Origin: Gammaproteobacteria bacterium
GTDB taxonomy: Bacteria; Pseudomonadota; Gammaproteobacteria; Steroidobacterales; Steroidobacteraceae
Direction of reading: 5' to 3'
NCBI GenBank assembly: GCA_028293765.1
Contig: JAQGOG010000048.1
Coordinates: forward strand, 1 to 64,000
Length of the DNA stretch: 64,000 nt
The notes below the pieces were generated by a model, which worked only from the letters and a program-made list of their open reading frames with translations, did no database searches and was not told where the DNA came from. The first letter of the stretch is position 1; each line of letters opens with the position of its first letter. Shown piece by piece: positions 33,799-54,699 of the stretch. The position numbers were made by a program, and so were the translations under genes.

Positions 33799-34081
33799 GT
33801 GCGCGATACGTTTTGCCTCAGGTCAACGGTTGACACAGTCTGTCAGCGATCTCACAACCGGCATCCAGTATCGGGGGTGAGAGTCATCGAATGATTCCAA
33901 GGTGCCGGCCGCGTGTCTCAATTGAAACAGGTCTCGACCCGGACCGCGGCCAGCGCGGACTTGTTCTCGACACGGGATGAGCACGACGCGGGGGCCTGCT
34001 GGAAATCCGACTGGAGGATTCGACTGGCGCTCGAGATGGAATAAAATGGGGCGTGGCCTTCCTTCACATCGGGGTCTCACG

Positions 34082-37467: not shown

Positions 37468-40400
37468 ATGGCGACAGAGCCTGTTACGCGAAGAACTGTT
37501 GGTGCCAGCCGATTCCGCATGGATGAATGGGCGGGGCACGCTCGGGCCGCGCCGTTTCTAGCCATCACGCCTTTCGAGCGGCCGGACCTGTCTCTGGCGC
37601 GGGCGTTCGAGCGGCACGGCGCCGCAGTGGCTGTCGATGTCGGACGAAACCGCGCACATCACCCGCAGGTTCTCGAAGCGCTCCGTCCGTTGTGTTTGCG
37701 TTCGTGCAGCGGTGCGGTCGGGGTTCGCATCCCCGATCATGTGGCGATTGCGCCCCATCACCTGCCCGCTGAGGTCGGTTTCGTAATACTGACCGCGGGG
37801 GCGCCCCTGGATCAGTGGCTTGATCACTTCTTGATCATCGCCCAAGTGGGTTCCGAGGCCGAGGCCCGCGTGGCGATTGCGGCTGGCGTCTCGGCGCTGA
37901 TCGCGAAGGGTGTGGAAAGTGGCGGTCCCACTGGTCACAGCGGAGCTTTCATTCTGCTGCAACAAATTCTTGCGCTACCGGAGGCGCGCGGGGTTCCAGT
38001 CTGGTGCCAGGGGGGCATGGGCTTGTACACCGCCGCCGCGGCCATTGTGGCCGGAGCCCGCGGCATTGTCCTCGATAGCCAGCTCGCCTTATTGCACGAG
38101 AGCACGCTGCCGGCGCATATCAAAGCCGCGGTGAGCGCGATGGATGGCAGCGAGACGCGGGTGCTCGGTGGTTATCACATCTACAGTCGCCCAGGTACCG
38201 CGGCCGCGCAACACGTCGAGCTCGAACCTCATGCGGTGCGAGCGCTGCTCGGTAACGAATCGCTCCAGGAGCTGTTGCCGATCGGACAGGATGCGGCGCT
38301 AGCTGGTGCCATCGCCGCACAATATCCCACCGTGGAAACGCTGCTGCATGGACTGCGGACGCGCATTGCCGGGCAGATGCGGCAAGCCAAGCACTTGTCG
38401 CCCTTGGCCCAGATGAGTCCACTGGCCCGCGCACATCGCACGCGCTTTCCGATCGCGCAAGGCCCGATGACTCGTGTCAGCGACTCGGCTGACTTTGCAA
38501 TCGCAGTGGCGCAGAACGGTGCACTGCCGTTTCTCGCGTTATCGCTGATGCCAGCGCGTACTGCGCGCAGCCTGCTCGAGCAGACCCGCGGCGGCATCGG
38601 CGAGCATAGCTGGGGAGTCGGTGTGCTCGGCTTCGCGCCGCCGGAAATCCTCAATCCGCAGCTCGAATTGATTCGGGAATTTCGCCCTTCGGTCGTATTG
38701 CTGGCGGGGGGGCGGCCTTCGCAAGCGCGCCCCCTCGCAGAACTCGGGATTCCCGCCTACTTGCACGTTCCCTCGCCAGGTCTGCTGGCCCTGTTTCTCA
38801 AAGATGGCGCACGCCACTTCATTTTCGAAGGTCGCGAATGCGGTGGCCATGTCGGGCCGCGTTATAGCTTCGTGCTGTGGGAACAGCAAATCCAGCAACT
38901 GCTGGCGTTCGACCGTCCCGAAGAGCTGCATGTGTATTTTGCAGGCGGCATCCACGATGCGCGCTCGTCCGCGATGGTTGCCGCGTTTGCGGCGCCGCTC
39001 GCCGCACGCGGGGCAAAAATCGGCGTAATGATGGGCACCGCCTATCTGGCCACGGAAGAAGCGGTGAACACCGGCGCAATCGTTCCGGAGTTTCAGCGTC
39101 AGGTTCTGAGCGCGGTCGAGACCACATTGATCGAAACTGCGCCGGGGCACGCGGTTCGCTGTCTGCCGAGCGGGTTCATCGACACATTCGCCGCCGAGAA
39201 GCGCCGCCTGCAGGAAGAGGGTCTCGGCGCGCAGGAGAATTGGAAGGCGCTCGAAGCTTTTAACGTCGGCCGGCTGCGGGTGGCGAGCAAAGGTCTCAAA
39301 CGGCTCGGCGACGCGCTGCTGACCGTCGATGGCGCCACGCAGGAGCGCGAAGGCATGTACATGATCGGCCAAGCGGCGGCGCTGTGCGTCGAGGCCCAAA
39401 CGATGGCGAGTCTGCATCGGGCTGTCAGCGTCGACTCGACCGTATTGCTCGACGCCTGCCGTGCGCCGCCGTTATCACGCGCCACTGTCAATGAGCCCAT
39501 CGCGATCATCGGCATGGAGTGTATTTTTCCGGGGTCTCCCGATTTGGAGAGCTTCTGGGCCAATATTCTCGAAGGCCGTGACTTGATCACCGAAGTACCC
39601 GCCGAACGTTGGAATGCAGACCTGTACTACCGCAAGGGCTCGGCTGCGCAGAAGGGCAAGACGCCCAGCAAGTGGGGCGGTTTCATCGATGAGATCGGAT
39701 TCGATCCACTGCGGTACGGTATTCCGCCGCAATCGCTCGCGGCGATCGAACCGGCGCAGCTTTTGAGTCTGGAAGTGGCCTGTCGCGCGCTCGCGGATGC
39801 GGGCTACGGTGAGGAACGTCCCTTCGATCGGGACAAGACCTCGGTCATTTTCGGCGCCGAAGCCGGCATGGAGTTGTCCAACGCTTATGCGTTCCGCAAC
39901 AGCTTTGCGCAGTATTGCGGAGAGCTGCCGCCGCAACTCGACGCGGCGTTGCCCGACCTCACGGAAGATTCCTTCCCGGGTGTGTTGGCCAACGTCATCG
40001 CCGGCCGCATCGCAAACCGTCTGGGTCTGGGGGGTGTGAACTATTCAGTGGATGCTGCTTGTGCGAGCTCATTGACCGCCCTGGAGCTCGCGGTAAAGGA
40101 ATTGCGCAGCGGCAGCAGCGACATGGTGCTCGCGGGCGGCGCGGACTTTCATAACGGCATCAATGATTTTCTGATGTTCGCAAGCGTTCAGGCGCTGTCG
40201 CCTTCCGGCCGCTGCCGCTCCTTCGATGCCGACGCCGACGGCGTCTGTCTGGGCGAAGGCACTGGGGTCGTTGTTCTCAAAAGACTGCGCGACGCCGAGA
40301 GTGATGGTGACCGCATCTATGCAGTCATAGACGGCATCGCCGGTTCGAGCGACGGCAAGGGTCTGGGTCTGACCGCGCCGCGCAAGGAGGGTCAGAAGCG

Positions 40401-43400
40401 CGCCCTGGAGCGTGCTTATTGGCAAGCAGGCCAACTCCCGGGCGCCGTGGGACTCGTCGAAGCGCACGGTACGGGCACAGTAGTGGGCGACCGCACCGAA
40501 CTGAAGACGCTAACGGAGATTTACAATGCCGGCGGCGCCGTTGCGGGACAGACGGGATTGGGCTCCGTCAAGAGCCAGATCGGACACACCAAGTGCGCCG
40601 CTGGGATCGCGGGTGTGATCAAGGTTGCCAAAGCGCTATATCACCGTGTTCTGCCGCCCACACAAAACATCAAGACGCCGACGGAGTGGTATCGCCGCGC
40701 GAACAGTCCATTCGTGTTCTATGAGACGCCGCGAGTCTGGTTGGACGAGCACGCGCGCGCCGCGGTGAGCGCCTTCGGATTCGGTGGCACGAATTTCCAT
40801 GCACTTTTGTCGGCGCATACGGCGTCACGCGGCGGCAATCCGCCCGCCTTGCGGCGCTGGCCCGCGGAGTTGTTTGTCTTTCGCGGCCAGGATGCGGCCG
40901 AGGCGCACGGGCAGATGCGGCGTCTGCAGCAGTTCCTGGAAGAATCAACCGCGCCGCTGGTCTTGCGGGATCTCGGGTTTACGGCGAGCGGGTTGGGTGC
41001 AGGCGCAGTTCAATGCGCATTCGTTGCCGAGGATATGAGCGACCTCGCGGTGAGATTGAAGCTCGCGCTGAGCGGTGTGGCAGATTCTCGGATCCAGCGG
41101 CGCGGGGGCGCGAGCGATGGCAAGGTCGCGTTCCTCTTTCCCGGCCAGGGCAGCCAGGTACCAGGAATGCTGCAGGACGTCTTTATCGCGTTTCCGCAGC
41201 TGCGGCCGATTTTGCAATGCGGTCGGGCTTGGCTTGACGAACTGTATCCGTCCACTGCGTACAGCAGCGACGAGCAGCGGGAGCAGCAGCGCACGCTCAC
41301 TGATACGCGTGTCGCGCAGCCCGCGTTGGGAATCGTCGAATATGCGATGGCGACTCTGCTGCAGAGTTGCGGCGTGCGGCCGCAGCAGCTGGCCGGTCAC
41401 AGTTACGGGGAACTCGTCGCGCTGGCAGTGGCGGACACCTTCGACTTGCCGACGCTCCTGCAGCTGAGCCGCCAGCGTGGTGAGGCGATCGTGGCTGCAG
41501 CGGGTTCCGACCCCGGCAAGATGCTTGCCGTGAGTGGCACAACTACAGCCATTGCGGCCGCCCTGCGCGGGGTCGATGGCGTCGTGCTCGCGAATCAGAA
41601 CAGCCCCGCACAGACCGTCATTTCCGGTTCCTCACCGGCGATAGAGGCGGCACTCGTGGCACTGAAGCAGAGTGGTCTTGCGGCAAAGCCCATCGAGGTC
41701 GCGTGCGCTTTCCATTCGCCCGTAGTGGCGCGCGCCAGGGAGTTGTACGCCGATCATCTGCGTGATGTCGGCATGTCTGCACCGCAAGTGCCCGTGTACT
41801 CGAACTCCACGACTAGCCCCTATGGCGCCGATGTGGCCGCGATCAAGGATCAACTCGCCCGACACCTTGTCGAGCCCGTGCGTTTTGTCGAACAGATCGA
41901 GCGCATGTACGCTGACGGCGCGCGTATCTTCGTCGAGGTCGGCCCTGGACGCGTATTGACGGGATTCGTCGAGAAGATCCTCGCCGGCAAATCTCACCAC
42001 ACGGTCGTTACCGACCAGAAGGGCCGGCCCGGTATCGCGCAGTTTCTCGAAGCCCTCGCACGGCTTGCGGTCCTGACGGCAGATGTCGACATGGGCGCTC
42101 TTTATGCCGAGCGGCAGGCCCGCCGCCTCGATCTCGGCGAGCCGTGCAGGCTCGCTCCATCCACCTGGCTGATCAATGGCCAGCGCGCACGGCCTCTGGA
42201 AGGAACGCTGCCGAGCCATGCCGGCAAAGCACTGACCCAACCGGTGAAACTCACCGATGCTTCCATAACGCCTGGCAAAGTAGATGGCCCGCAAGAACGT
42301 GTGTTACTGGATTTCCTCAACAATGTGCGCGAGATGGTCAACGCGCAGCGCGACGTGATGCTGGGCTTTCTAGGTCAAGCAACCTCTGCGAGTAAGGTCG
42401 CGCCGACGCATCCGCCCGTGGTCATCGAAGCGGTGGCGGTCCCGCCGGCAATGGCGAACGCAGAGCGCGCCCTCGCACGGACTACGGACGTAGCGCCCGA
42501 CCGCGAACCCTCCGGCCTCCAGGAGACCCTGCTTGCCATCGTCAGCGGGCGCACGGGGTATCCCGCTGAAATGCTCGATGTGGATCTGGATCTCGAAGCG
42601 GATTTGTCGATCGATTCGATCAAGCGGGTGGAAATCATCGGCGAGCTGTCCGAGCGCCTCGGCTTCAAGGACAAGCTCGGCGCCGATGCCGATGCCCTTC
42701 TGGAGCAGCTGGCGGCTCAAAAAACCTTGCGGGCGGTTTTGGAGTGGCTCTCGCAACAACTCCCCGAGGACCTGTCGACGCCGGCTGTGTCTCTGCCTGG
42801 CAGCGCTCGTCCGTTGAGTGTTGGCCCCTCATCGAGCGCGGTCGATTCATCGAACCGCGAGGTTGCGGTCATAGTGCCAGACATTCAAACCCTGTTGCTG
42901 TCCGTGATCGGTGAGCGCACCGGATACCCGCCCGATGTGCTCGATCTCGATCTGGACCTGGAAGCCGATTTGTCGATCGATTCCATCAAGCGCGTGGAAA
43001 TCGTCGGTGAATTGCTGCAGCAGCTCGGTACCAGGCTAACTGCGGTGGATCGCGATGCCGCGCTGGAAAATCTGGCGGCATTGAAAACCCTGCGTGCCGT
43101 GATCGAGTCGCTGCAGGCGATGACGCGCACCACTGAGCCGGCGACAGCTCCATCCGCCAAGGCTGCCAGCAGTCCGGGTGCCGTTGCCGGAACGATCGCT
43201 CGGCTCCGGCTGCGCAGTGTAGCTATCGATATGCCCGCAGTGCACGCGACTGGGCTGGCCGGCAAACAGTTCCTGATTACTGACGACGGTCGCGGTATTG
43301 CCGAGGAGCTCGCGGCACGCATCGAGCTACAGGGCGCACAGGTGCGTCTCCTGGATTTTGCGGCAGACCTGCCGGCTTCCGGCGATCTGGAGTCGGTCGA

Positions 43401-44688
43401 CGGGCTCATTCACCTGTGGGGCCTGCATGCGGGCCACTGCGACCGTGATCTCGCGCGCTTCTATGATCTGCTACGCCGGATGTTGGTGCACAAGGTGGCG
43501 TATCTGGTGGCTGCGAGCGGATTGAGCGGACGCTACGGTCATTTTCGGGACCCCGCCGCGCCGCTCGACCACCACCGGGGCGCGGGGCTGGCGGGATTGA
43601 TCAAATCGGTCGCCCAAGAGCGGCCGGAGATTCATGCGCGCTGTGTCGATCTCGAGCTGCGGGAGGCACCCCGCGCTCTCGCCGAGTATCTGGAGCTCGA
43701 GCTGCTCAGCAAGGACCGTCTGGTCGAAGTTTGCTACCGCAACGGCAGCCGCCATCGAATGGAGTTGGTGCCGGCAGCGCTGCCGCGGAGACCTGAGGGA
43801 CACAACGTCAAACTCGGTCCGGACAGCGTCGTGTTGCTCACCGGCGGCGCGCGCGGCATCACGGCAGCCTTGTCGCGGTCGCTCGCGAGTGAATACCGCT
43901 GTCGCCTGGAATTCGTGGGGCGCACGTGCCTTGAAACAGCATCTGATAAGCCCGAGTACGCGTCAGCGCGCGATCCGAAGGCGCTGCGGCAACGGGTGCT
44001 CGCGGATAGTCCGGGCCTGGCGCCAGCGGCAGTGGAGAAGCGCTGCGCCCACATCCTTGCAGCGCGCGAGATTCGCCAGACCTTGGATGCAATTTGTGAG
44101 GCCGGCGGACAGGCGAATTACACGCAACTCGACGTGCGCGATATGGACCGCTTCGGCGAATTCGTCGAAGGCTTGTATCGGCGATATGGCCGCATCGACG
44201 GGGTGATTCATGGTGCGGGAGTGGTCGAAGATAAGCTCGTGCGCGATAAAAGCGTCGAAAGCTTCACGCGAGTGTTCGAGACCAAGGTGCGCGGCGCAGT
44301 AACGTTATACAAAGCTTTGCGCGACGATGTGGGGTTCGTGGTGTTCTTTTCCAGTGTGGCCAGCGTGTTTGGCAATCGCGGCCAAGCTGATTATGCCGCG
44401 GCGAACGACATTTTGGACAAGCTGGCGCACGCATTGCAAGCGCGCGTACAGGGGCGCGTCTTGTCGGTCAACTGGGGGCCGTGGGCGGGGAAAGGTATGG
44501 TTTCGCCGGAGTTGGAGCGCGAATACGCGCGCCGCGGCATAGGCCTGATTCCCTTGCATGACGGTGTAGAGGCGCTGTTGCATGAGCTGCGTGAAGGCGA
44601 CCGCGAGGACGTGCAGATCATCATGATGTGCGGTAGCCCCGAGAGTATGAGCGTTCCGCAACTTCGAAGCGTGCACGCAGGTGCGTAA
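37468..44688 (+). CDS. PUFA-synthase-like type I PKS (NMO-NMO-KS-AT-ACP-ACP-KR)
   Basis: 2406 residues. Two nitronate-monooxygenase/PfaD-like TIM-barrel domains come first (about 30-305 and 320-630; ESGGPTGHSG and ECGGHVGPR). Next are KS 675-1110 with Cys865 (DAACASS), His1000 (EAHGTGT) and His1040 (GHTKCAAG); AT 1215-1515 with Ser1312 (GHSYGE); two ACPs with Ser1717 and Ser1839 (both LSIDSIKRVEI, the PUFA-type signature); and KR 1900-2400 with TGGARGI at 2125 and Tyr2309. PfaD-type domains act as enoyl reductases, so chain reduction could be complete once the partner supplies DH. The ATG at 37468 follows AAAGGGA; the frame is open upstream to about 37294. The partner gene starts 2 nt after the stop. 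Confidence 0.93.
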   Translation: MATEPVTRRTVGASRFRMDEWAGHARAAPFLAITPFERPDLSLARAFERHGAAVAVDVGRNRAHHPQVLEALRPLCLRSCSGAVGVRIPDHVAIAPHHLPAEVGFVILTAGAPLDQWLDHFLIIAQVGSEAEARVAIAAGVSALIAKGVESGGPTGHSGAFILLQQILALPEARGVPVWCQGGMGLYTAAAAIVAGARGIVLDSQLALLHESTLPAHIKAAVSAMDGSETRVLGGYHIYSRPGTAAAQHVELEPHAVRALLGNESLQELLPIGQDAALAGAIAAQYPTVETLLHGLRTRIAGQMRQAKHLSPLAQMSPLARAHRTRFPIAQGPMTRVSDSADFAIAVAQNGALPFLALSLMPARTARSLLEQTRGGIGEHSWGVGVLGFAPPEILNPQLELIREFRPSVVLLAGGRPSQARPLAELGIPAYLHVPSPGLLALFLKDGARHFIFEGRECGGHVGPRYSFVLWEQQIQQLLAFDRPEELHVYFAGGIHDARSSAMVAAFAAPLAARGAKIGVMMGTAYLATEEAVNTGAIVPEFQRQVLSAVETTLIETAPGHAVRCLPSGFIDTFAAEKRRLQEEGLGAQENWKALEAFNVGRLRVASKGLKRLGDALLTVDGATQEREGMYMIGQAAALCVEAQTMASLHRAVSVDSTVLLDACRAPPLSRATVNEPIAIIGMECIFPGSPDLESFWANILEGRDLITEVPAERWNADLYYRKGSAAQKGKTPSKWGGFIDEIGFDPLRYGIPPQSLAAIEPAQLLSLEVACRALADAGYGEERPFDRDKTSVIFGAEAGMELSNAYAFRNSFAQYCGELPPQLDAALPDLTEDSFPGVLANVIAGRIANRLGLGGVNYSVDAACASSLTALELAVKELRSGSSDMVLAGGADFHNGINDFLMFASVQALSPSGRCRSFDADADGVCLGEGTGVVVLKRLRDAESDGDRIYAVIDGIAGSSDGKGLGLTAPRKEGQKRALERAYWQAGQLPGAVGLVEAHGTGTVVGDRTELKTLTEIYNAGGAVAGQTGLGSVKSQIGHTKCAAGIAGVIKVAKALYHRVLPPTQNIKTPTEWYRRANSPFVFYETPRVWLDEHARAAVSAFGFGGTNFHALLSAHTASRGGNPPALRRWPAELFVFRGQDAAEAHGQMRRLQQFLEESTAPLVLRDLGFTASGLGAGAVQCAFVAEDMSDLAVRLKLALSGVADSRIQRRGGASDGKVAFLFPGQGSQVPGMLQDVFIAFPQLRPILQCGRAWLDELYPSTAYSSDEQREQQRTLTDTRVAQPALGIVEYAMATLLQSCGVRPQQLAGHSYGELVALAVADTFDLPTLLQLSRQRGEAIVAAAGSDPGKMLAVSGTTTAIAAALRGVDGVVLANQNSPAQTVISGSSPAIEAALVALKQSGLAAKPIEVACAFHSPVVARARELYADHLRDVGMSAPQVPVYSNSTTSPYGADVAAIKDQLARHLVEPVRFVEQIERMYADGARIFVEVGPGRVLTGFVEKILAGKSHHTVVTDQKGRPGIAQFLEALARLAVLTADVDMGALYAERQARRLDLGEPCRLAPSTWLINGQRARPLEGTLPSHAGKALTQPVKLTDASITPGKVDGPQERVLLDFLNNVREMVNAQRDVMLGFLGQATSASKVAPTHPPVVIEAVAVPPAMANAERALARTTDVAPDREPSGLQETLLAIVSGRTGYPAEMLDVDLDLEADLSIDSIKRVEIIGELSERLGFKDKLGADADALLEQLAAQKTLRAVLEWLSQQLPEDLSTPAVSLPGSARPLSVGPSSSAVDSSNREVAVIVPDIQTLLLSVIGERTGYPPDVLDLDLDLEADLSIDSIKRVEIVGELLQQLGTRLTAVDRDAALENLAALKTLRAVIESLQAMTRTTEPATAPSAKAASSPGAVAGTIARLRLRSVAIDMPAVHATGLAGKQFLITDDGRGIAEELAARIELQGAQVRLLDFAADLPASGDLESVDGLIHLWGLHAGHCDRDLARFYDLLRRMLVHKVAYLVAASGLSGRYGHFRDPAAPLDHHRGAGLAGLIKSVAQERPEIHARCVDLELREAPRALAEYLELELLSKDRLVEVCYRNGSRHRMELVPAALPRRPEGHNVKLGPDSVVLLTGGARGITAALSRSLASEYRCRLEFVGRTCLETASDKPEYASARDPKALRQRVLADSPGLAPAAVEKRCAHILAAREIRQTLDAICEAGGQANYTQLDVRDMDRFGEFVEGLYRRYGRIDGVIHGAGVVEDKLVRDKSVESFTRVFETKVRGAVTLYKALRDDVGFVVFFSSVASVFGNRGQADYAAANDILDKLAHALQARVQGRVLSVNWGPWAGKGMVSPELEREYARRGIGLIPLHDGVEALLHELREGDREDVQIIMMCGSPESMSVPQLRSVHAGA

Positions 44689-44690
44689 TC

Positions 44691-47600
44691 GTGGAACCTA
44701 TAGCGATTATCGGCATGGATTGCATCTTTCCGGGTGCGCCCGACCTCGAACGCTATTGGCACAACATTCAGCACGGTGTCGATGCGATTGCCGAGGTGCC
44801 TGAGCACCGCTGCTCGAAAACATTTTTCGATCCGGACTCCGACCAAGTCGATCGCTTTTATTGCCGGCGTGGCGGATTCGTAGACGAGTACGCCGAATTC
44901 GATCCGATTGAATTCGGCATCATGCCCAAGGCTGCGGCGGCCGCCGAGCCGGACCAGCTATTGACCCTGCGTGTGGGCGCCAACGCGTTGCGGGATGCCG
45001 GCTACCTGGATCGAGAGTTTCCGCGGGAGAAGACTGCGGTCATCCTGGGGCGCGGCAACTACGCAGGCGCCGGCACGCTGCGCCTCCAGCAGCACGCGCG
45101 CATGGTGCAGCAGACATTGCAAACTTTGCAGGACCTCCTGCCGAATATCGGCGCTCTGGAACTGCAGACGGTGCGCAAGCAGATCAAGGCGGAACTGGAT
45201 CATTGCGGCCCGGATGTCGCGGCGGGCGTCATACCGAATCTGGCGGCCTCCCGTTTGGCGAATCGCCTCGATTTGCGCGGACCCGCCTACACGGTGGATG
45301 CAGCTTGTGCGAGCGCCCTCATCGCCGTCGAGCAGGCGTGTCACGCGCTCACGCGTGGCGATTGCGCGATGGCGCTAACCGGCGGTCTGCACTTCACTCA
45401 CGACCTTACATTTTGGGCGACTTTCTGCCAACTGGGTGCGTTGTCGCGCTCACAGCAGATCCGGCCGCTGTCGCAGGATGCCGATGGCATTCTCGCCGGC
45501 GAGGGAATCGGTTTGCTGGTGTTGAAGCGGCTGCGCGAGGCGCAAGCGGACGGAGATCGCATCTATGCCGTATTGCACGGCATTGCGTCGGCGAGCGATG
45601 GGCGCAGCAGCAGCTTACTGGCGCCCTCGGTCTCCGGCCAGTTATTGGCCTTGCGCCGGGCTTGGCAGCACACGGCGTTTCGCCCGGAGGATATCGGCCT
45701 GCTCGAAGCGCACGGCACCGGCACGCCGGCCGGCGATCAAGCGGAGCTGGAAACGGTACGGCAATTCTTCGGCGCACCGACGAGCACGAAGTCACGCGCG
45801 GTGATCGGTTCGGTGAAGTCGATGATCGGGCATACGATGCCCGCCGCAGGCGCCGCCGGTCTCATCAAGGCGGCGCTATCGATCTATCATGGCGTCCTGC
45901 CGCCGACTCTACATTGCCACCGGCCGCATCTCCTGTTGAATACCACGCGCTTTCGCGCTATCGCAAACCAAGAGCCGTGGCCCGAAACCAGTGTGCGCAT
46001 CGCCGCCGTCAATGCCTTCGGCTTCGGCGGCATCAATGCGCACGCCGTGCTGAGTTCCGCTCCCGCCCCCACGGCCGCGCCATTACCGCACCGGAAAACG
46101 ATCCTCCTGCCGCAAGTCGCGGTGGTCGCGGCCGACTCGAAGGAGTCTTTGCTGGAGAAGCTCGCGCAGCGCCGTTGGGATCGCACGGAGCAAGCGGGGC
46201 GTTTTCGCCTCGCGATAGTCGAGCCCGACGACACCCGCCTGAGCTTCGCGCACAAAGTGGTCACTGCGGGCGCCGCCTGGCACGGGCAGCATCAAATCTA
46301 CTTTTCGGCGGATCGACTGCTCACCCGCGGCAAGCTCGCGTTTGTGTTTCCCGGCGTGGACAGCAGCTTCGATCCGCAAGTCGCAGATGTTGTAGAACAC
46401 TTTCGTCTGCCGCCGCCGAGCCACGCGAGGAGGCTCGATCCGGCCAAGGATCTACTACAGGTGGCGCTCGGCGTCTACGACGTCGATATGGTGCTCTTCA
46501 AGGCCCTCGAAGCGCTGCGCATCAAGGCTGACGCGATGGCGGGTCATAGCTTGGGGGAGTGGTGCGCCATGGCTGCGTGCAACATGCTCCCGCTGCAATA
46601 CGTGCACGGCGCCATACAGCAGGTGCAAAACGAAGCGATGCCCGACATCGACCTGCTGTTCCTCGCCGCGGCTTGCACGGAGGCGCAAGCGCTGGAAGTG
46701 CTCTCCGGCCTGCACGATCTCACGCTTTCTCACGACAACTGCCCGCATCAAGTGATCTTCTGCGGCCGCAGGTCGCACATCGAGACCGCCCTCGAGCGCT
46801 TTCGAGCACAGCGCGTCTTCGCCCAAGTGCTGCCGTTTGCATCCGGGTTTCACTCGCCGCTGTTCGCTCCTCATGTGGAGCGCTATCGCGCGTTCTTCTC
46901 CAACACTCCGCTGCACGAACCGAGCGTGCCGTTGTGGTCCACCACCACCGGCTGCAAATTTCCGCCATCGATCCTCGAGAAGCAGCAACTTGCCGTGGAG
47001 CATCTGCTGCGCCCCGTGCGTTTTCGCCAGCTCATCGAGAACATGTATGCGGACGGATTCCGCGCCTTCGTGCAGGTGGGCACCGGCAGCCTGGTCGGCT
47101 TCGTCGCGGATACGCTCAAAGGCAGAGCACATCTGACTGTCAGCGCGAACATCGCAAAGCGCTCCGGCCTGCAGCAGCTGACTCACGTGTGCGCCGCATT
47201 GTGGGTGGAGGGTGCGCAGCTGGAGTTGTCGTTGCTCGGGCTTGACGAGAAGCCATTGCGCAGCTCTCCCAGCGCGACCTTGCAGCGTCTTTCACTCGGT
47301 GTGCCACTGATCAGATTGAAAACGCCGCTGGCCCGCAGCGTTCCGACCGCGGCTGAGAATTGGACGGCAATCGGCACGAGCGACGATCCGCTGCAAGTGG
47401 CATTTTCGGCTGCACTTACTGACATCCGGCAGGCAGGGCACGACGTGCTTGCCGCGTGGGGGCAGCGCCAGAAGTCGCGCGCGGAACCCATCTCTACGCC
47501 TGCACCTTTTGAGGTACGCGTCGGACGGCATCTGGATGTGAACTCCACGATTCCTCTCGTGCGTGATCATTCATTTCATCGCGAGCGCGAGGGCTGGCCC

Positions 47601-48986
47601 GTGCTCGCGGATTGTCGGCCCGTCGTGCCTTTGACGATGGAGATCGAATTGCTGCGCGAGGCTCTGGAGTCGTACTTGCCCGGCTACGTCGTGATCGCGT
47701 TCGAGCAGATCCTGGCGTTTCGCTGGTTGCTGGTGGCCGAGCCGGTTGACATCAGCATTCATTTATCGATGCAGGAGTATCCGCTGGTCGATGTCGAGAT
47801 CGAGGGGTTCATTCGGGGCCGGGCGGTGCTCGCCAGGGACTACCCTGTGCCGCCAGCGCAGCGCACGGCGCCTTTGCGACAATCGCGCGCGTGCTCGATC
47901 ACGGCCGCTGAGCTGTACTCCCAGAATTGGATGTTTCATCGCGACGCGTATTGCGGAGTCACTCAGCTGGGGCCGGTCGGCGACAATGGCATCGCGGGAT
48001 CGATCAAAGTGCCGCCGGGTCCCGGAGCGCTCCTCGATAACATGGGACAGCTTGCCGGCTTCTGGGTAATGGAGACGCAGGCGCAGGCCCCGCTCGCCAT
48101 GCCCATCGGTGTGGAGAAAGTACGTTTCTATCGTCCGCAGCCTGCGGTTGGCGAAGCATTCGAGTGTCAGATCCGCATCGACAAGCTCGATGATCAGAAC
48201 TGCTGGAGCGATCAGCAGCTCCTCGATCCCACAGGACGGGTGGCCGTCGAGATGCTGGGCTGGCATACCCGCCGGTACCTGATGACGCGCGAGTTCTATC
48301 GGCGTACGCGTGAAGTCGAAATTCACCTGCTTTGCGAGGACACCGGTCATCCGTTCGTGCTGTTCGAGGATCACTACGATACCGCGAACATGCGCGAGTA
48401 CATTTCGCTGCGGATGCTCAATCAGCCGGAGCTGCGTGAGTACGAAGCTTTGCCGCCGCGGCGCAAGCGTCCCTGGCTCAATGGCCGCATTGCCGCGAAG
48501 GATGCGGTGCGACAGTACTTGTGGCGCAAACACGGGCACCGGGCGTTGTTTCCGAAGGAGCTGGCGATCAGTAACGCCCCGAATGGACAGCCGCGCGTAC
48601 AGCCCCATATCACCGAGCCTTACGTGCGCCCGCTGCATATTTCCATTACTCATAAGGGCCGCCTGGCAGCTGCGATCGCTGCCAGCCACCCCGTCGGCAT
48701 CGACGTCGAGACAATCGAAGCACGCTCGGACAGTTTCCTGGCACTCGCCTTTTCTGCCGAAGAGCTCGAGCTGCTGCCCAGCCACGGCCGCGAGGAGTGG
48801 ATTGCACGGGCGTGGGCCGCCAAAGAGGTGGTTGGCAAAGTCGCCGGGACGGGTTTGAGGGCTAATCCCCGTGCGTTCCGTCTCGAGTCGATTCGACAGG
48901 AACGGATCTGCGTGAACGGCCTGTGGGTCGACACGCTCAAGCGTCAGAACGATGTCATTGCATGGCGAGGAGAGGAGGACGCATGA
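44691..48986 (+). CDS. PfaC-like PKS with integral phosphopantetheinyl transferase (KS-AT-DH-PPTase)
   Basis: 1431 residues starting at GTG. KS about 3-455 keeps Cys206 (DAACASA), His341 (EAHGTGT) and His381 (GHTMPAAG). AT-like domain about 540-840 has Ser620 (GHSLGE). A double-hotdog dehydratase spans about 935-1190, with a candidate catalytic His near 959 (RDHSFH) and Asp near 1117 (LLDNMGQ). A C-terminal Sfp-type PPTase (about 1225-1425) carries WLNGRIAAKDAVR, GIDVE and WAAKEVVGK. PfaC of marine bacteria is KS-CLF-DH-DH without AT or PPTase, so this is a different arrangement. The PPTase can activate the ACPs of the cluster. Confidence 0.91.
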   Translation: MEPIAIIGMDCIFPGAPDLERYWHNIQHGVDAIAEVPEHRCSKTFFDPDSDQVDRFYCRRGGFVDEYAEFDPIEFGIMPKAAAAAEPDQLLTLRVGANALRDAGYLDREFPREKTAVILGRGNYAGAGTLRLQQHARMVQQTLQTLQDLLPNIGALELQTVRKQIKAELDHCGPDVAAGVIPNLAASRLANRLDLRGPAYTVDAACASALIAVEQACHALTRGDCAMALTGGLHFTHDLTFWATFCQLGALSRSQQIRPLSQDADGILAGEGIGLLVLKRLREAQADGDRIYAVLHGIASASDGRSSSLLAPSVSGQLLALRRAWQHTAFRPEDIGLLEAHGTGTPAGDQAELETVRQFFGAPTSTKSRAVIGSVKSMIGHTMPAAGAAGLIKAALSIYHGVLPPTLHCHRPHLLLNTTRFRAIANQEPWPETSVRIAAVNAFGFGGINAHAVLSSAPAPTAAPLPHRKTILLPQVAVVAADSKESLLEKLAQRRWDRTEQAGRFRLAIVEPDDTRLSFAHKVVTAGAAWHGQHQIYFSADRLLTRGKLAFVFPGVDSSFDPQVADVVEHFRLPPPSHARRLDPAKDLLQVALGVYDVDMVLFKALEALRIKADAMAGHSLGEWCAMAACNMLPLQYVHGAIQQVQNEAMPDIDLLFLAAACTEAQALEVLSGLHDLTLSHDNCPHQVIFCGRRSHIETALERFRAQRVFAQVLPFASGFHSPLFAPHVERYRAFFSNTPLHEPSVPLWSTTTGCKFPPSILEKQQLAVEHLLRPVRFRQLIENMYADGFRAFVQVGTGSLVGFVADTLKGRAHLTVSANIAKRSGLQQLTHVCAALWVEGAQLELSLLGLDEKPLRSSPSATLQRLSLGVPLIRLKTPLARSVPTAAENWTAIGTSDDPLQVAFSAALTDIRQAGHDVLAAWGQRQKSRAEPISTPAPFEVRVGRHLDVNSTIPLVRDHSFHREREGWPVLADCRPVVPLTMEIELLREALESYLPGYVVIAFEQILAFRWLLVAEPVDISIHLSMQEYPLVDVEIEGFIRGRAVLARDYPVPPAQRTAPLRQSRACSITAAELYSQNWMFHRDAYCGVTQLGPVGDNGIAGSIKVPPGPGALLDNMGQLAGFWVMETQAQAPLAMPIGVEKVRFYRPQPAVGEAFECQIRIDKLDDQNCWSDQQLLDPTGRVAVEMLGWHTRRYLMTREFYRRTREVEIHLLCEDTGHPFVLFEDHYDTANMREYISLRMLNQPELREYEALPPRRKRPWLNGRIAAKDAVRQYLWRKHGHRALFPKELAISNAPNGQPRVQPHITEPYVRPLHISITHKGRLAAAIAASHPVGIDVETIEARSDSFLALAFSAEELELLPSHGREEWIARAWAAKEVVGKVAGTGLRANPRAFRLESIRQERICVNGLWVDTLKRQNDVIAWRGEEDA

Positions 48987-49285
48987 GTTTCAACGTCGAT
49001 CCGGCAATCATTCGAGAGATTACCGCGGTGATCCGCGAGGCCGTGGCGGAGGACTGGATACAGCAATTCGAGATCGGCGCGGACACCAGCTTCAACGCTG
49101 ATCTGGAGCTCGAGAGCATCGAGTTCGTCACCATTGCTGCGGGCTTGCAGCAGCACTTCGGCGTGCAGGTCGATCTCATCGGCTGGCTGTCGACGAAGGC
49201 GTTCGATGAGCTGATTGCACTGCGCGTCGGGAATATCGGCGAGTTTGTCGCGAACACTCGCGTCGCCGGCGGCGGGCAGAGCTGA
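48983..49285 (+). CDS. free acyl carrier protein
   Basis: 100 residues with an ACP fold: predicted helix 1 (PAIIREITAVIREAVAEDW), then the phosphopantetheine site DLELESIEFVTIAAGLQQHFG with its Ser, then helices 3-4. It overlaps the PKS stop by four bases and has an excellent GGAGAGGAGG ribosome binding site. It differs from the two PUFA-type ACPs in the megasynthase, so it may carry a separate acyl unit, for example for the tailoring acyltransferases. Confidence 0.92.
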   Translation: MSFNVDPAIIREITAVIREAVAEDWIQQFEIGADTSFNADLELESIEFVTIAAGLQQHFGVQVDLIGWLSTKAFDELIALRVGNIGEFVANTRVAGGGQS

Positions 49286-50526
49286 TGGCGAAGATGCTGA
49301 TCGTCGTGCCGCCGCTCACGGGCCATATCAATCCCGCTTTGTCGGTGGCCGCAGAACTGCGCCTGCGTGGGCATGAAGTGGCCTGGGCGGTGCATCGAGC
49401 GCTGATTCCCGATCTGTTGCCTGCCGACGCCGAGATCCACGCGCTGCCGGTGGAATCGAACTTCGACCCGGGCGGACGCTCGTCTGCGGTGAGAGGCCTG
49501 GAGAGCATCAGATTCTTCTACGAGCAATTTTGCCTGCCACTGGCGCGGGCATCCCTGCAGCCCTTGCAGGAGATCGTGGAAAGCGTAAAGCCCGATCTCA
49601 TGATTTGCGATCACCAGATGATTGCCGGTGCGCTCGTCGCCCGGGCACGAAAGATTCCCTGGATCACGCTGGCCTCAACCAACGTCTCCATTCTGAAGAT
49701 GTCGGGGATGGTCGATGCCTGGCTGGAAGAGCAATTCGCCGGTCTGCAGCGCGACTACGGCGTGCCGGTGCAAGCACGTCCCGACTTTTCGCCCTCCGGC
49801 GTCATCGTGTTCTCGTCCGAAGCCCTGCTCGGCGGCAAGTACACATACTACGACGCACCTTATTACTTTGTCGGTCCGGCACTCACGAATCGCAAGCTTG
49901 CGGTCGAGTTCCCATGGCAGGAGCTGCGCGCCGACGCCGCAAGACTGCTCATATCCTTGGGTACCGTCAGCCGCGATCGGGGAGTGCGCTTCTATGACGT
50001 CATGATGCAAGCCCTCGATGACTTGAATCTCTCCGACTCGTATTTGTCGCGCCGGCCCTTGCAAGTCGTGATGGTCGCCCCGGAAGAGCTGTGCGAGCGA
50101 GCGCCCGCCAACTTCATCGTTCGGCCGCGGGTGCCCCAGATTGAGTTGCTCGCGCACATGGATGCCGTGGTGTGTCATGCCGGGCACAACACCGTGTGCG
50201 AAGCACTGTCATTCGGCTTGCCGCTCATTGTCGCTCCGATCCGCGATGATCAACCGATTGTGGCGCGGCAGGTAATCGATGCGGGCGCGGGAATGTTCAT
50301 GCGCTACGGCAAAGTCACTGTTGGCACGGCTCGCGCGGCGGTCGAGGAATTGCTCCGCGAGCCAGCTTACCGCGACGGCGCGCTGCGCCTGAAGGCGGCA
50401 TTCCGGGATCTCGGGGGCGCAAGGCAAGCAGCGGACATTCTCGAGCGGTTTCTGAGCGGTAAGGTTTTGGCACCGAGCGGGCAGTTGAGCGCGGTGCAGC
50501 CGAGACCCAGTCATGCGGTGGGTTGA
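49285..50526 (+). CDS. GT1-family (MGT-like) glycosyltransferase
   Basis: 413 residues with GT-B fold: N-terminal VVPPLTGHINPALSVAAELRLRGHEV acceptor half, and a C-terminal nucleotide-sugar half with CHAGHNTVCEALSFGLPLIVAP and DDQPIVARQVIDAGAG. These are hallmarks of macrolide/flavonoid/sterol-type glycosyltransferases acting on small lipophilic acceptors. The first base overlaps the ACP stop (TGATG). In this cluster it probably attaches a sugar to the lipid product. Confidence 0.92.
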   Translation: MAKMLIVVPPLTGHINPALSVAAELRLRGHEVAWAVHRALIPDLLPADAEIHALPVESNFDPGGRSSAVRGLESIRFFYEQFCLPLARASLQPLQEIVESVKPDLMICDHQMIAGALVARARKIPWITLASTNVSILKMSGMVDAWLEEQFAGLQRDYGVPVQARPDFSPSGVIVFSSEALLGGKYTYYDAPYYFVGPALTNRKLAVEFPWQELRADAARLLISLGTVSRDRGVRFYDVMMQALDDLNLSDSYLSRRPLQVVMVAPEELCERAPANFIVRPRVPQIELLAHMDAVVCHAGHNTVCEALSFGLPLIVAPIRDDQPIVARQVIDAGAGMFMRYGKVTVGTARAAVEELLREPAYRDGALRLKAAFRDLGGARQAADILERFLSGKVLAPSGQLSAVQPRPSHAVG

Positions 50527-51334
50527 ATCCGATGGTGTGAGGCTGAACACGCTGAGCATCGGTAGCGGGCCGTTGCTGGTGATGTGCCACGGGCTGGTGA
50601 CCGCCAGCCTCGCCACCTGGTATTTCTCCGCCGCCCCCGCCTTGGCGCGCCGTTATCAAGTAGTGCTCTATGACCTGCGCGGGCACGGCAAGAGCGACCT
50701 GGCGGCCACAGGCTATGATTTGGATACGATGGCGCGCGATCTGGCGCAGGTGATCCTTGCGTACCAGCCGAAGCAACCAGCGCAGAAATGGGTAAAGGTC
50801 GCGCTGGTCGGCCACAGTTATGGCGCTCTGATCGTCCTTCACTATGCGCTGCGGCATCCTCAAACTGTCGCACGACTTGCACTGATCGACGCACCGTTAC
50901 CCGCGGTGCGTTATGTGCACCCGTCATTGGTCGATATCGATTCGCCGGCGGCCTTGGAACAGCAGTTCTCCGTTCACCTCGAAGGACAAGCCCCGCGCGG
51001 TTCGCGTCAACGGCAGCGAGTGCGCGAGCGGCTCGAGTTCCTATTTCTACACAGTTCGTTGCGGGAGGATCTGCGCACAGCGGTCGATGTGCCCGATGCG
51101 TGCCTGAGGATGCTGAACGTTCCCACGCTGTGCCTGTATGGCAGACATTCCGACTGCGCGGCGGCGGGAAAGCGCCTCGGAAGCCTGCTGCCAAGCGGCG
51201 CGCTACGGTGGTTGGACTGCGGTCATTTCATTCCCACGCAAGCCCCCGCCGCCATGACAGAGCAATTGTTATCGTATTTTGCACCAGACAGGATCGAGGT
51301 AAAGGACTATGGCGTCCACGATGTCTCTGGATAA
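50513..51334 (+). CDS. alpha/beta hydrolase (putative thioesterase or lipid hydrolase)
   Basis: 273 residues. Oxyanion-hole motif CHGLVT, strand-turn DLRGHGKS, nucleophile Ser102 in GHSYGA, an acidic residue near CLYGRHSD and a catalytic His in DCGHFIP complete the triad. The start overlaps the glycosyltransferase gene by 14 nt. Neither PKS protein has a thioesterase domain, so this enzyme is a candidate for product release. Confidence 0.9.
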   Translation: MRWVESDGVRLNTLSIGSGPLLVMCHGLVTASLATWYFSAAPALARRYQVVLYDLRGHGKSDLAATGYDLDTMARDLAQVILAYQPKQPAQKWVKVALVGHSYGALIVLHYALRHPQTVARLALIDAPLPAVRYVHPSLVDIDSPAALEQQFSVHLEGQAPRGSRQRQRVRERLEFLFLHSSLREDLRTAVDVPDACLRMLNVPTLCLYGRHSDCAAAGKRLGSLLPSGALRWLDCGHFIPTQAPAAMTEQLLSYFAPDRIEVKDYGVHDVSG

Positions 51335-52139
51335 ACACAATATCCCGCCGTCGGCGCTCTACACCGCGGCGACTTGGCAGTGGGGAAAGCTTCCCGGCGC
51401 AGAACTGGTCACGCCGCCCAACGCGCGGCTTGTATTTCGGGTCATGAACGCCTATTCGTCCCTGTATCGTCTGCTCAATCCGAAGTGGCATTCCCTCAAG
51501 CACACTCTGCTGCACCGACATGCGGGCATCGAGCACCTGTTGCGCGAATCGAACTGCTCACAGGTGATCGAGATCGCCGCGGGATTCTCGCCGCGCGGCA
51601 CCGCCTTCAGCGCCGATCCTGCGCTGCGATACTTCGAAGTCGATTTGCCGCCGGTGGTCGCCGCCAAACGCGCATTGCTTCAGAGCACAGCGGCGGGTCA
51701 AGGGGTATTGCGTCGCGAGAATTTCGTGCTGCTCGAAGGCGATGTCACTGGCATGGATTGGACGAAATTTGCGGTGTCCCCGAGCTTCATCATCACCGAA
51801 GGCTTGATGATGTATTTCGACCGCGGCGTGCAGATGCCAATCTGGCGGGCCATCGCCGAATTCTTGCGCGGCAATCGCGGCGAGTACGTCTTTGACTATC
51901 TGCCGGTTCCCGATGAGCCGAGGCGCAGCGTCGCCGGCCTTTTATTGTCACGGATGCGCGGTACGCAGCGGCGCGCGTTTCCCCAAGATGGGCGCAATCG
52001 CTACGAAATTGCGGATGACCTGCGCGCTGCCGGTTTCGAAGACGTCACGATGCATTCGAGCGTCGAGTTCGCAAGTGCATGGAATTTACCGCATGAGATG
52101 GCGCACACACGTGTGATCCTCTATCGGTGCCGCTGTTAA
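51309..52139 (+). CDS. SAM-dependent methyltransferase, LCMT-like
   Basis: 276 residues. The SAM site is VIEIAAGFSPRG; the acidic loop EVDLPPVVAAKRALL and ITEGLMMYFDR match the leucine carboxyl methyltransferase/PPM family, whose bacterial members O-methylate natural products. The start overlaps the hydrolase gene by 26 nt. Probable role: O-methylation of a carboxyl or hydroxyl group on the lipid or its precursor. Confidence 0.88.
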   Translation: MASTMSLDKHNIPPSALYTAATWQWGKLPGAELVTPPNARLVFRVMNAYSSLYRLLNPKWHSLKHTLLHRHAGIEHLLRESNCSQVIEIAAGFSPRGTAFSADPALRYFEVDLPPVVAAKRALLQSTAAGQGVLRRENFVLLEGDVTGMDWTKFAVSPSFIITEGLMMYFDRGVQMPIWRAIAEFLRGNRGEYVFDYLPVPDEPRRSVAGLLLSRMRGTQRRAFPQDGRNRYEIADDLRAAGFEDVTMHSSVEFASAWNLPHEMAHTRVILYRCRC

Positions 52140-52150
52140 GGAGTACGCAG

Positions 52151-53389
52151 ATGGCGATCTGGAAAGGACGATATTCCCGCAAGCTCTCGCCGATTGAGCG
52201 GGCCTCGCTCGTCTTGAACGAGTTCTGCAACTACAATTGCGACATCATCGTGCAGGGATACGGCGCGCTTTCGGTCGAAACGCTGCGAACCGCTGTAGAA
52301 AAGGCGGCGCAGGCGAATCCTGGAAGCCGCGTGCGGCTGCGGGGCATTCTCGGATTCTCGCGTTGGGTCGATAGCGGCATCGCACCTGAGGTGCAGGAAG
52401 TTCACGCTTCGGTGTGGGACGGACACAGTGAGCGCGGAGCTGCGTTCATGCAGGAGCGCTTTGATGCACTTGCAGGAGGTCCCATTTGCAAAGTGCTGTA
52501 TGTGCGCGGCAGTCCTGCACATATCGTCTTTCGGGCACTGCATGCGGCGGTCGACGGACGCTCCATACTGCACTGGATGGCGGAAGTCTTTCGCGCACTG
52601 CGCGGTGAGCCGTTGCTGGGTTCGCCGTGCACCTATATCGACTGGGACATCATGCGCAAGTTCCAGGAGAAGGTAAACCGAAGCGCCCTGGACGGGCCAT
52701 CGACGGAGCCGAACCTGCCGGTAATTCCCTGCAGTTCTCCGCGCGAAGCGCGGTTGCGCTATATCTGGCGGGCCGTGGTCTTTCCCAAGATCATCCCTAA
52801 TGTCTTGCCGAAGTTCGCGATATTTCTCGCCGAATACGCGCGGCGAAATGCGCAAGGCAGGGTTTGCTTTACGGTACCGGTCGATCTGCGCACGCTGCGC
52901 GAAGAAGTGTTGTCGCTCGGAAATTTGACTGGTTATCTCAGTATCCCGATCGAGCCAGGGGATACGACCAGGAGCTTCAGCCGGCAGCTGAGTCTGCGAG
53001 TGCGCAACTACGCCGAGTGTCATCGGCCGGACATTCTGAAGAAGCTCCCCTGGGTGCCAGTGCGTACCATTCGCCGCGCAATTGCCCGCAACATGCAGCG
53101 CGCGTTGTATGAGCCGGCTGCCGACGCTATGAGCGGCGGTGTCGTTTCAATGGGAAACTTTCCGTTGCAGAATGTGTCCGCGCCGGCTTTTACGGCGCTC
53201 GAGCTCATACCGATTCCGGGTTTTGCGGGCAAGCTGAACGTTGTGACTATTTTCACCGAACGCCATACCATCACCAGCTTCGCTGCGCCGGAAAGTTACA
53301 ACGGCGACGGACAACTCGACGGGCTGCTCGATGACTTCCAAAGAGAATTTGGTGAACAGCGCACACCCAATACTGCCGTGGCGGTATGA
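52151..53389 (+). CDS. HxxxDG acyltransferase (condensation/Pap-like), first of a tandem pair
   Basis: 412 residues. The active-site motif HAAVDG (His131, Asp135) lies in the N-terminal half, and the chloramphenicol-acetyltransferase-like second half includes GRVCFTVPVDLRTLR and GVVSMGNFPL. This fits CoA- or ACP-dependent acyltransferases of the condensation/PapA/wax-ester type. The ATG at 52151 has AAGGAG eight bases upstream. The stop overlaps the next gene by four bases. It likely esterifies or amidates the glycolipid. Confidence 0.86.
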   Translation: MAIWKGRYSRKLSPIERASLVLNEFCNYNCDIIVQGYGALSVETLRTAVEKAAQANPGSRVRLRGILGFSRWVDSGIAPEVQEVHASVWDGHSERGAAFMQERFDALAGGPICKVLYVRGSPAHIVFRALHAAVDGRSILHWMAEVFRALRGEPLLGSPCTYIDWDIMRKFQEKVNRSALDGPSTEPNLPVIPCSSPREARLRYIWRAVVFPKIIPNVLPKFAIFLAEYARRNAQGRVCFTVPVDLRTLREEVLSLGNLTGYLSIPIEPGDTTRSFSRQLSLRVRNYAECHRPDILKKLPWVPVRTIRRAIARNMQRALYEPAADAMSGGVVSMGNFPLQNVSAPAFTALELIPIPGFAGKLNVVTIFTERHTITSFAAPESYNGDGQLDGLLDDFQREFGEQRTPNTAVAV

Positions 53390-54699
53390 GCGCATTTTGG
53401 TCGCGAGAGAGAATGAAACTGGAACTGGCGCCGCAAACGAGCATCGCACGCCGGCTTAGCGTTTTCGAATACGGCCACGCGGCCGCCGGCGCGAGTGCGA
53501 AGACGCTGGATCCGCCTCGCATCATCACAATGGTGCTGGAAGGCGAAAGCAGCGTACCGCCTGCACAGTGGGAGGAGGCGTTGCGATGCGCGGTTGCTGC
53601 AAACCCGGGCATACGATTGCGTATTCAGGGGTCCAGACGGCGCGCGCGCTGGACCGGCGACGGAGCACTTCCCCCGCAAGTGCGGGTCATCGAGAATTGC
53701 CGATGGGACGGGAGCTCACATCGCGGCATCGAGCTCATCGAGCAGACGCCCCTGCCGCTACAGACCGGGCCCTCCACTGAATTGATCATTGCCACCGGAG
53801 AGATCACTCGGCTGATTCTGCGCACGAGTCACGCGGTTATGGACGGCGGGGGCGTACTGCATTTCTTACAGGAATTGTTTCGGGCGCTGCGCGGCGAACC
53901 GCTGCTCGGTAGCAACGCGCCGTTCAGCGATGTCGATCTAATGCGTGCGGTTACGAGCGAGGGTTGGAAAGGCGGGCGTGGGGGCGAAAGTCCGATTCCG
54001 CTCACCGGTGGCGCGCGAGGAGCAAGCATAGGCGACGTGTGGCAGCGTCTCACCTTGCCGGCGAGGCCACAGCAAAATCTCATGGGCCGTGTTGCGGAGG
54101 TTGCCGCGCGGCATGCATGGAGCTTTGGACCGGGGACGGTGCGTATCGCCGTTCCGGTAAATTTGCGGCGGCACTTGCCGGGCCTGAAGTCGACCATGAA
54201 TTTCAGCGGGCTGCTGCATGTGGAAATGGCTCCCGGTGAAACGGCCGAGGAGTTTCGGCGCAAAGTGCGTACTGGGCTGGAGCGGAATCGCGATGCTGCG
54301 TTCCCCGCGGTGGCGGAGTGCATACGTTATTTGTCATTCGGATGGTTCGATCAGATGACCGGACGGACGCCAAAGAACTATCTGCGGCGCAATCTGTTGG
54401 AAACTGTGCTCATCACGAATCTTGGCGTGATCGATATGGCGCCGCTCACCTGTCCTCAGTTCGAGCCGTATAACTATTACAGTCTACCCGTCATGGGTAA
54501 CTCGTTTATATCGCTCAGTGCGACGGGCAGGCATCTCAACATGGTTGTCGGGATGCCCGCGATCTATGCTTCAGCAGACCGGCTCGAGCACTTCCTCGAT
54601 CTGCTGCGCGAGGAATTCAGCGCGGATGCGTCGGATGCGGTGCGTCGCGGCGCCTGCGCAAGAAGCGGCGTAGTTCACGGGCCGGGTCCGGGAACCTAG
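53386..54699 (+). CDS. HxxxDG acyltransferase, second of a tandem pair
   Basis: 437 residues. Same architecture as the upstream gene, with HAVMDG (His149, Asp153), then ELFRALRGEPLLGS shared nearly unchanged with its neighbour, and a later AVPVNLRRHLPGLKSTMNFSG. The pair clearly arose by duplication but has diverged, so they probably acylate different positions or use different acyl donors. It is the last gene of the cluster; the next genes run the other way. Confidence 0.86.
   Translation: MSAFWSRERMKLELAPQTSIARRLSVFEYGHAAAGASAKTLDPPRIITMVLEGESSVPPAQWEEALRCAVAANPGIRLRIQGSRRRARWTGDGALPPQVRVIENCRWDGSSHRGIELIEQTPLPLQTGPSTELIIATGEITRLILRTSHAVMDGGGVLHFLQELFRALRGEPLLGSNAPFSDVDLMRAVTSEGWKGGRGGESPIPLTGGARGASIGDVWQRLTLPARPQQNLMGRVAEVAARHAWSFGPGTVRIAVPVNLRRHLPGLKSTMNFSGLLHVEMAPGETAEEFRRKVRTGLERNRDAAFPAVAECIRYLSFGWFDQMTGRTPKNYLRRNLLETVLITNLGVIDMAPLTCPQFEPYNYYSLPVMGNSFISLSATGRHLNMVVGMPAIYASADRLEHFLDLLREEFSADASDAVRRGACARSGVVHGPGPGT

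Follow-up and report, generated by a model that had tools for sequence, protein, structure and literature searches.

A PUFA-synthase-like operon with glycolipid-type tailoring genes in a bacterium of the Steroidobacteraceae

What is made by an operon that joins an iterative synthase of the kind associated with polyunsaturated fatty acids (PUFAs) to a glycosyltransferase (GT), a hydrolase, a methyltransferase and two putative acyltransferases? Such an operon occupies positions 37468-54699 of a stretch of 64,000 nucleotides (contig JAQGOG010000048.1 of assembly GCA_028293765.1, a gammaproteobacterium of the Steroidobacteraceae), here called the window. As a preliminary description of this DNA had proposed, its eight open reading frames all lie on the plus strand and form one operon-like run, with a single gap of 2 nt and six overlaps of 4, 1, 14, 26, 13 and 4 nt. 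The reading we favour, with modest confidence, is that an iterative type I fatty acid synthase (FAS) encoded here produces a very long, mainly saturated chain, which further enzymes of the operon turn into an acylated glycolipid. Genes 1 and 2 and their domains are as follows.

37468..44688, plus strand: gene 1, type I FAS/polyketide synthase (PKS) megasynthase with enoyl reductase (ER), ketosynthase (KS), acyltransferase (AT), two acyl carrier proteins (ACPs) and ketoreductase (KR) in this order (Pfam/NCBIfam domains, conserved catalytic residues)
37555..39414, plus strand: ER region, NMO/FabK-type flavin reductase, residues about 88-707 (Pfam NMO, two stretches)
39493..40671, plus strand: KS1, residues 734-1126, with Cys923, His1058 and His1098 present
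41131..42066, plus strand: AT1, residues 1280-1591, with Ser1370 and Arg1395 conserved
42523..43080 (outer limits approximate), plus strand: tandem ACP1-ACP2, with phosphopantetheine serines Ser1775 and Ser1897
43828..44487, plus strand: KR, residues 2179-2398 (Pfam)
44691..48986, plus strand: gene 2, KS-AT-dehydratase (DH)-phosphopantetheinyl transferase (PPTase), with KS2 residues Cys206, His341 and His381 and one KS domain only
46458..47096, plus strand: AT2, residues 590-802, with Ser620 present and no Arg at 643-647
47559..48278, plus strand: DH of the PS-DH type, with His960 and Asp1116 (Pfam)
48546..48917, plus strand: built-in PPTase domain with GIDVE and WAAKE (Pfam/NCBIfam ACPS, conserved residues)

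The open frames of both genes (2,464 and 1,431 codons) are not due to chance, given their length and the 46-60% identity kept elsewhere; that of gene 1 starts at a GTG at 37294, with an ATG at 37468. For residue checks each protein was aligned with its best match in 22 related loci, giving 23 rows for genes 1 and 2 with the window included. The KS1 triad and the Ser and Arg of AT1 are present in all 21 rows that cover them, the rows of L027 and L035 being truncated. Ser1775 of ACP1 is found in 20 rows and Ser1897 of ACP2 in 21, while the remaining rows are gapped there or, in L040, cut off, and DLSIDSIKRVEI is present in both ACPs. In gene 2, Ser620 and His721 of AT2 and His960 of the DH are present throughout (23/23), the KS2 triad in 22 of the 23 rows (the row used for L039 is without KS), and Asp1116 of the DH and Asp1338, Lys1378 and Glu1379 of the PPTase likewise in 22, L035 being truncated. 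In L039 (9986-14570, Hydrocarboniphaga effusa AP103) gene 2 is split over two frames that overlap, owing to a frameshift or an error in the sequence. Positions 643-647 of AT2, which we take by FabD spacing to be the expected site of the malonyl-binding Arg, lack an Arg in all 23 rows, and for this reason the substrate of AT2 is probably a non-carboxylated acyl group.

The domains of the preliminary description are mostly recovered by Pfam/NCBIfam, among them the built-in PPTase (an ACPS domain in gene 2). KS and AT domains in fact occur twice each, and no PfaD model was matched by the ER region of gene 1. This N-terminal region consists of two NMO/FabK-like halves, and its sole match (671 aa) is to FabK TIGR03151 with 107 bits (E 8e-31), below the cut-off of 453. 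Genes 1 and 2 contain no match to a FabA-type domain at E<=0.001, the only dehydratase being the PS-DH of gene 2, the region of which has no PDB match by sequence at E<=1. Nor was a chain-length factor (CLF) found in genes 1-2 by Pfam, as gene 2 shows one KS stretch and the KS2 cysteine is present. With KR, DH and ER present and FabA-type and CLF domains not found, a very long saturated chain is the likely product of the synthase.

These features also bear on whether the operon is a PUFA synthase cluster with accessory genes, which we consider highly improbable. Gene 1 scores 986 bits against TIGR02813 (omega_3_PfaA), just below the cut-off of 1010, and has tandem ACPs with the Pfa signature. 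However, the synthase of Beijerinckia, a Type P strain, passes the same model with 1156 bits, so that a match does not mean a PUFA product. PUFA synthases (Types A/B) have four to six tandem ACPs, a CLF adjoining the second KS, two FabA-like DH/isomerase domains and separate pfaD and pfaE, whereas here there are two tandem ACPs and one KS per protein, ER and PPTase are fused, and glycosyl-, methyl- and CAT-fold genes follow downstream. The two FabA matches of the genome lie on other contigs. The term ‘PUFA-type’ of the preliminary description holds for ancestry, but the fused ER, the single PS-DH and the missing CLF speak against a PUFA product. The cluster does contain KS, ACP and KR, the minimum of a secondary-lipid synthase (Shulse and Allen 2011), and its two ACPs in tandem are a typical, optional trait of such synthases.

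Which described synthase is then closest? The Pfa and heterocyst glycolipid systems had been named as nearest in logic; the nearest characterised system is rather the Type P (ars) FAS, minus the type III PKS. Gene 1 is collinear with the ER-KS-AT-ACP-KR synthase on pBIND02 of Beijerinckia (39% identity over 88%), as well as with that of Methylosinus, and the DH-PPT proteins of both are matched at 28-29% by the corresponding end of gene 2 (PPTase and PS-DH were checked with Pfam for Beijerinckia). Beijerinckia indica ATCC 9039 is listed under Type P by Shulse and Allen (PMC3098273). The Type P comparison used the Beijerinckia and Methylosinus sequences, and Azotobacter by description: in Azotobacter vinelandii the acids supplied by ArsA are C23-C25, and the PPTase is ArsD (PMC4824345). 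In a KS tree (FastTree, midpoint rooting, a small set without Azotobacter, hgl or Pfa references) KS1 groups with Beijerinckia and other PfaA-like KS domains (local support 0.995) and is separated from Nostoc PKS, a grouping close to validated pathways that is expected of secondary-lipid synthases.

The differences to Type P are also substantial. The ars synthase is given a single ACP (PMC3098273) and gene 1 has two, gene 2 has an extra KS-AT, and the free ACP, the hydrolase, the LCM methyltransferase and two CAT-fold proteins are additions here. Next to the Beijerinckia synthase, too, lie a GT and an ABC exporter, but the GT is of another family. Searches for a type III PKS gave nothing in the window, in the 22 relatives (flanks of up to 10 kb), in the two Streptomyces loci described below (L060 and L079) or, by PF00195, in the genome. 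A resorcinol head is for this reason unlikely, and despite the collinear synthase and the matching DH-PPT end there is very little to recommend a Type P pathway to an alkylresorcinol or alkylpyrone phenolic lipid. The head of the lipid is most likely a sugar added by gene 4, encoded in the second half of the operon.

48983..49285, plus strand: gene 3, free ACP with LELESIEFV (Pfam)
49285..50526, plus strand: gene 4, GT1/MGT-like UDP-glycosyltransferase (Pfam, NCBIfam, PDB matches)
50513..51334, plus strand: gene 5, alpha/beta-hydrolase with Ser102 and His238
51309..52139, plus strand: gene 6, LCM-family S-adenosylmethionine-dependent methyltransferase (Pfam/NCBIfam), present in 7/20 relatives reaching gene 7
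52127..53389, plus strand: gene 7, HxxxDG protein with a predicted condensation-domain (CAT) fold (motif, model)
53386..54699, plus strand: gene 8, second HxxxDG protein with the same predicted fold (motif, model)

Neither gene 7 nor gene 8 has a Pfam or NCBIfam match. Their motifs, HAAVDG and HAVMDG, are of the HxxxDG superfamily type, and their AlphaFold models (mean pLDDT 87.3 and 87.6) match CAT/condensation folds in Foldseek with best E values of 1.8e-18 and 2.0e-16, at 10-19% identity only among the matches listed. The structural matches of gene 8, and of gene 8 only, include PapA5 (1q9j, E 4.3e-15), its profile finds condensation domains in the PDB at E 9e-7, and its DG is kept in 17/17 orthologue rows. 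Genes 7 and 8 thus share HxxxDG and the predicted fold with the CAT-fold superfamily, including PapA5 and the condensation domains of non-ribosomal peptide synthetases (NRPSs), and differ in standing alone. Of the ‘two HxxxDG acyltransferases’ first described, the motif is present and the class is suggested by motif and predicted fold together; by these models the two proteins would most likely add acyl groups. The methyltransferase is borne out by its LCM-family match, and its action on an oxygen is presumed.

The set of genes is not confined to the window. A scan with six short gene 2 peptides, covering a single genome for each species (84,980 according to the tool description), gives as a lower bound 22 loci with 46-57% identity to gene 2 in the best segment. 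By their record titles these belong to Solimonas, Hydrocarboniphaga, Stagnimonas, Stenotrophobium, Paraperlucidibaca and Sterolibacterium metagenome-assembled genomes (MAGs), and to MAGs or contigs of Nevskiaceae, Burkholderiales, Mesorhizobium, Rhizobiaceae, Verrucomicrobia and Proteobacteria. The order of genes 1-5 is the same in all as far as the contigs reach: genes 1 and 2 adjoin in 22/22, the ACP and GT come next in 21 (the miss being L035, a contig of 4.8 kb), and the hydrolase and gene 7 are present in 20, L026 and L035 ending before them. Of the 20 loci extending to gene 7, 16 have an orthologue of gene 8. In 16/20 loci gene 7 is followed by an HlyD-type adaptor and an ABC ATPase; two FtsX permeases stand alongside in 15, while L043 ends inside the ATPase, and gene 8 lies beyond these exporter genes. 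Gene 8 directly follows gene 7 in L038, as in the window, and in three Sterolibacterium MAGs (L036, L037, L040) gene 7 is inverted and no gene 8 is seen before the contig end.

The window cluster is hence a member of a conserved family, without the exporter that most members have. The description as ‘self-contained’ is weakened by the missing HlyD/ABC exporter. The claim of a glycolipid cluster is supported in part: a Pfa-like iterative synthase is linked to genes for glycosylation and of acylation type in a set that recurs syntenically, and the glycolipid itself is a putative product. The conserved exporter of the relatives, by analogy, fits an envelope or surface lipid; we liken it to DevBCA of the hgl islands.

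Two candidates for the missing exporter were rejected. A cognate exporter displaced elsewhere in the genome is not supported, since the FtsX relative there (35% identical, against 55-73% between clusters) and its ABC neighbour (58%, against 74-88%) are taken as paralogues. Downstream of the operon lie an AcrB-type RND pump (57708-61070) and an outer-membrane factor (61936-63780), and the pump as query matches 47 pieces of the genome. The block from 57906 aligns with 83.7% nucleotide identity to G197, a genome of the same genus in which gene 7 was not found, and pump and factor are therefore not regarded as dedicated parts. As the exporter is missing here, another pump would act or the product would stay inside.

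From these genes we infer the chain length and saturation, the order of steps, the sugar, acylation and its sites, the role of KS2 and export as follows. The PPTase domain would activate the three ACPs, AT1 would load malonyl, and KS1 (with KS2) would extend the chain. KR, DH and ER would reduce it fully in most cycles, leaving it possibly hydroxylated. AT2 would handle a non-carboxylated acyl group, either a starter or the finished chain, which may then pass to the free ACP. The GT would add a sugar, the alpha/beta-hydrolase would act in chain release or transfer, the two CAT-fold proteins may esterify hydroxyls of the sugar or lipid, and the methyltransferase may cap a carboxyl or hydroxyl. 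In most relatives the HlyD/ABC/FtsX exporter would carry the product to the envelope.

A number of observations weigh against this scheme. No measured product was found for any carrier of the cluster. Beijerinckia is, according to PMC3098273, not known to produce phenolic lipids, which leaves Azotobacter as the one basis of the chain-length analogy. The acceptor of gene 4 need not be a lipid, since its match to the MGT model is below the cut-off and its PDB matches are to YjiC-type and other GTs. In gene 5, Ser102 and His238 are invariant in 21/21 rows, but the expected catalytic Asp is missing in all 21. At its expected place, the region we assume from the hydrolase motif to be the usual site, Ser213 is invariant, with a neighbouring acid in five rows; Asp126, also invariant, could serve instead of the usual Asp. 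Gene 7 has DG in 18 of 21 rows and HxxxDA in the three Sterolibacterium rows. Acyl transfer by gene 7 is moreover not certain, as 8s6l, the structure it matches best, bears the title ‘AzeD dehydratase’ (molecule name mycocerosyl transferase) and is matched weakly by PDB sequence search (E 0.04). The window contains no cognate HlyD/ABC exporter, and the closest match that its genome offers to the second FtsX is 35% identical. Scans of both cluster ends detected neither promoter-like nor terminator-like sites. Finally, the Type P layout has no second KS, whereas KS2 here seems to be complete in its catalytic residues and might serve a second chain or polyketide extension.

The last point, together with the likeness of the GT to the MGT subfamily, of genes 7 and 8 to NRPS condensation domains and of gene 7 to a protein titled as a dehydratase, would suit a product of another kind, a bioactive lipid or glycosylated polyketide and not an envelope glycolipid or surfactant, with the CAT-fold proteins joining a small second block or performing other chemistry. 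We consider this unlikely, though worth keeping in view: the eight genes include neither an adenylation domain nor a modular PKS, the KR-DH-ER set implies full reduction, and conservation across genera would suggest a structural or physiological role. The acylated glycolipid remains the preferred reading. A more specific version is offered tentatively, as a possibility that we hold doubtful: an undescribed secondary-lipid pathway across Gammaproteobacteria, Betaproteobacteria and Actinomycetes leading to an exported, doubly acylated very-long-chain glycolipid. As tentatively, a FAS of ArsA-like type for saturated chains, equipped with an active second KS, would in this pathway be coupled to CAT-fold acyltransferases and an exporter, and the product would be a new class of envelope lipid or biosurfactant.

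The pairing of a fused ER-KS-AT-ACP-KR protein with a PPTase-bearing partner is not new in itself. In PMC13291983, fused pfaDA and pfaBC with a PPTase are reported from an Aquimarina and a Flavobacterium and likened to Renibacterium, a Type M strain in PMC3098273; the likeness of Type M (Frankia, Renibacterium, S. avermitilis) to the gene 1/gene 2 pair is by description only. Type F heterocyst glycolipid synthesis shares the logic of a long-chain synthase plus a GT. However, HglC is KS-CLF-AT without DH/I domains (PMC3098273), while here no CLF is found and DH and PPTase are built in. Hgl-like clusters, screened in 225,388 prokaryotic genomes, are reported to be related to PUFA synthases (PMC11804610). 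No description of the tailoring set or of its product was found in the literature among the titles and abstract openings listed, with subscription journals, supplements and MIBiG outside the scope, which agrees with the earlier claim that no characterised cluster has exactly this set.

The same two megasynthases (46% and 40% identity) occur on plasmids of Streptomyces sp. NBC_01243 and NBC_00984, where megasynthase, KS-AT-DH-PPT protein (domains checked with Pfam for NBC_01243), ACP, hydrolase, GT1 and methyltransferase form one run. In contrast to the window, this run lacks genes 7 and 8 and an exporter, the order of hydrolase and GT is swapped, and the methyltransferase is UbiG-like, not LCM. 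These compact clusters (L060:14040-29014 and L079:12028-26999) lie on linear plasmids near IS3 transposases. On a Rhodobacteraceae plasmid (L063:9620-24474) a gene 1-like synthase is found with a TauD dioxygenase, a methyltransferase and an AT-DH-PPT protein.

The distribution of the cluster points to horizontal acquisition, as judged by sequence comparison. Gene 7 was found in none of the 57 other genomes of the genus, so that one of 58 members carries it, and the nearest relatives are Sterolibacterium-labelled MAGs (Betaproteobacteria). In the KS tree the Sterolibacterium rows are the partners of the window for KS1 (support 0.95) as well as for KS2 (0.97), within one clade of the 22 loci, the neighbour of which is the Streptomyces plasmid pair. 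Gene 7 was likewise not found in the other 195 genomes sampled in the order. At E<=1e-40 the GT was found in 2 of 369 genomes of a class-wide sample, its own included, and 6 of 99 genomes in the family of the second match have gene 7. Base composition adds no sign of transfer (GC 0.624 in the cluster and 0.615 in the rest of the window). The alignment of the flank from 57906 with G197 shows that the contig belongs to the genus, and makes assembly contamination unlikely. The DH-PPT half of gene 2 matched 24 of 196 genomes of the order; these were rejected as relatives, since among the matches listed only the PPTase end is matched, except in G000, G008 and G022. The large genomes G022 and G008 (loci L057 and L058) hold a more distant Pfa-like pair of their own, which shares 37-43% identity with genes 1 and 2. 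A phage link for gene 1 was also rejected: of 43 matching phage records none covers more than 80% of the gene, and the five among the matches listed cover 20-24%.

Secondary-lipid synthases with known products are few, and the nearly fixed tailoring set in named strains of Solimonas, Hydrocarboniphaga, Stagnimonas and Paraperlucidibaca may reveal a new class of bacterial glycolipid. It suggests that one core type of synthase has been re-headed, by a type III PKS in ars and by a sugar and acyl groups here.

Some further features were noted. The gene 5 family has, besides Ser213, an invariant Cys215 in the region of the usual catalytic Asp. About 2 kb upstream of gene 1, on the same strand, a regulator-like protein with a C-terminal helix-turn-helix (33977-35221) is a possible regulator of the cluster. 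The window has no tRNA or Rfam match, and at 23628-26156 it carries two neighbouring DEAD-box helicase genes, one of them DbpA-like.

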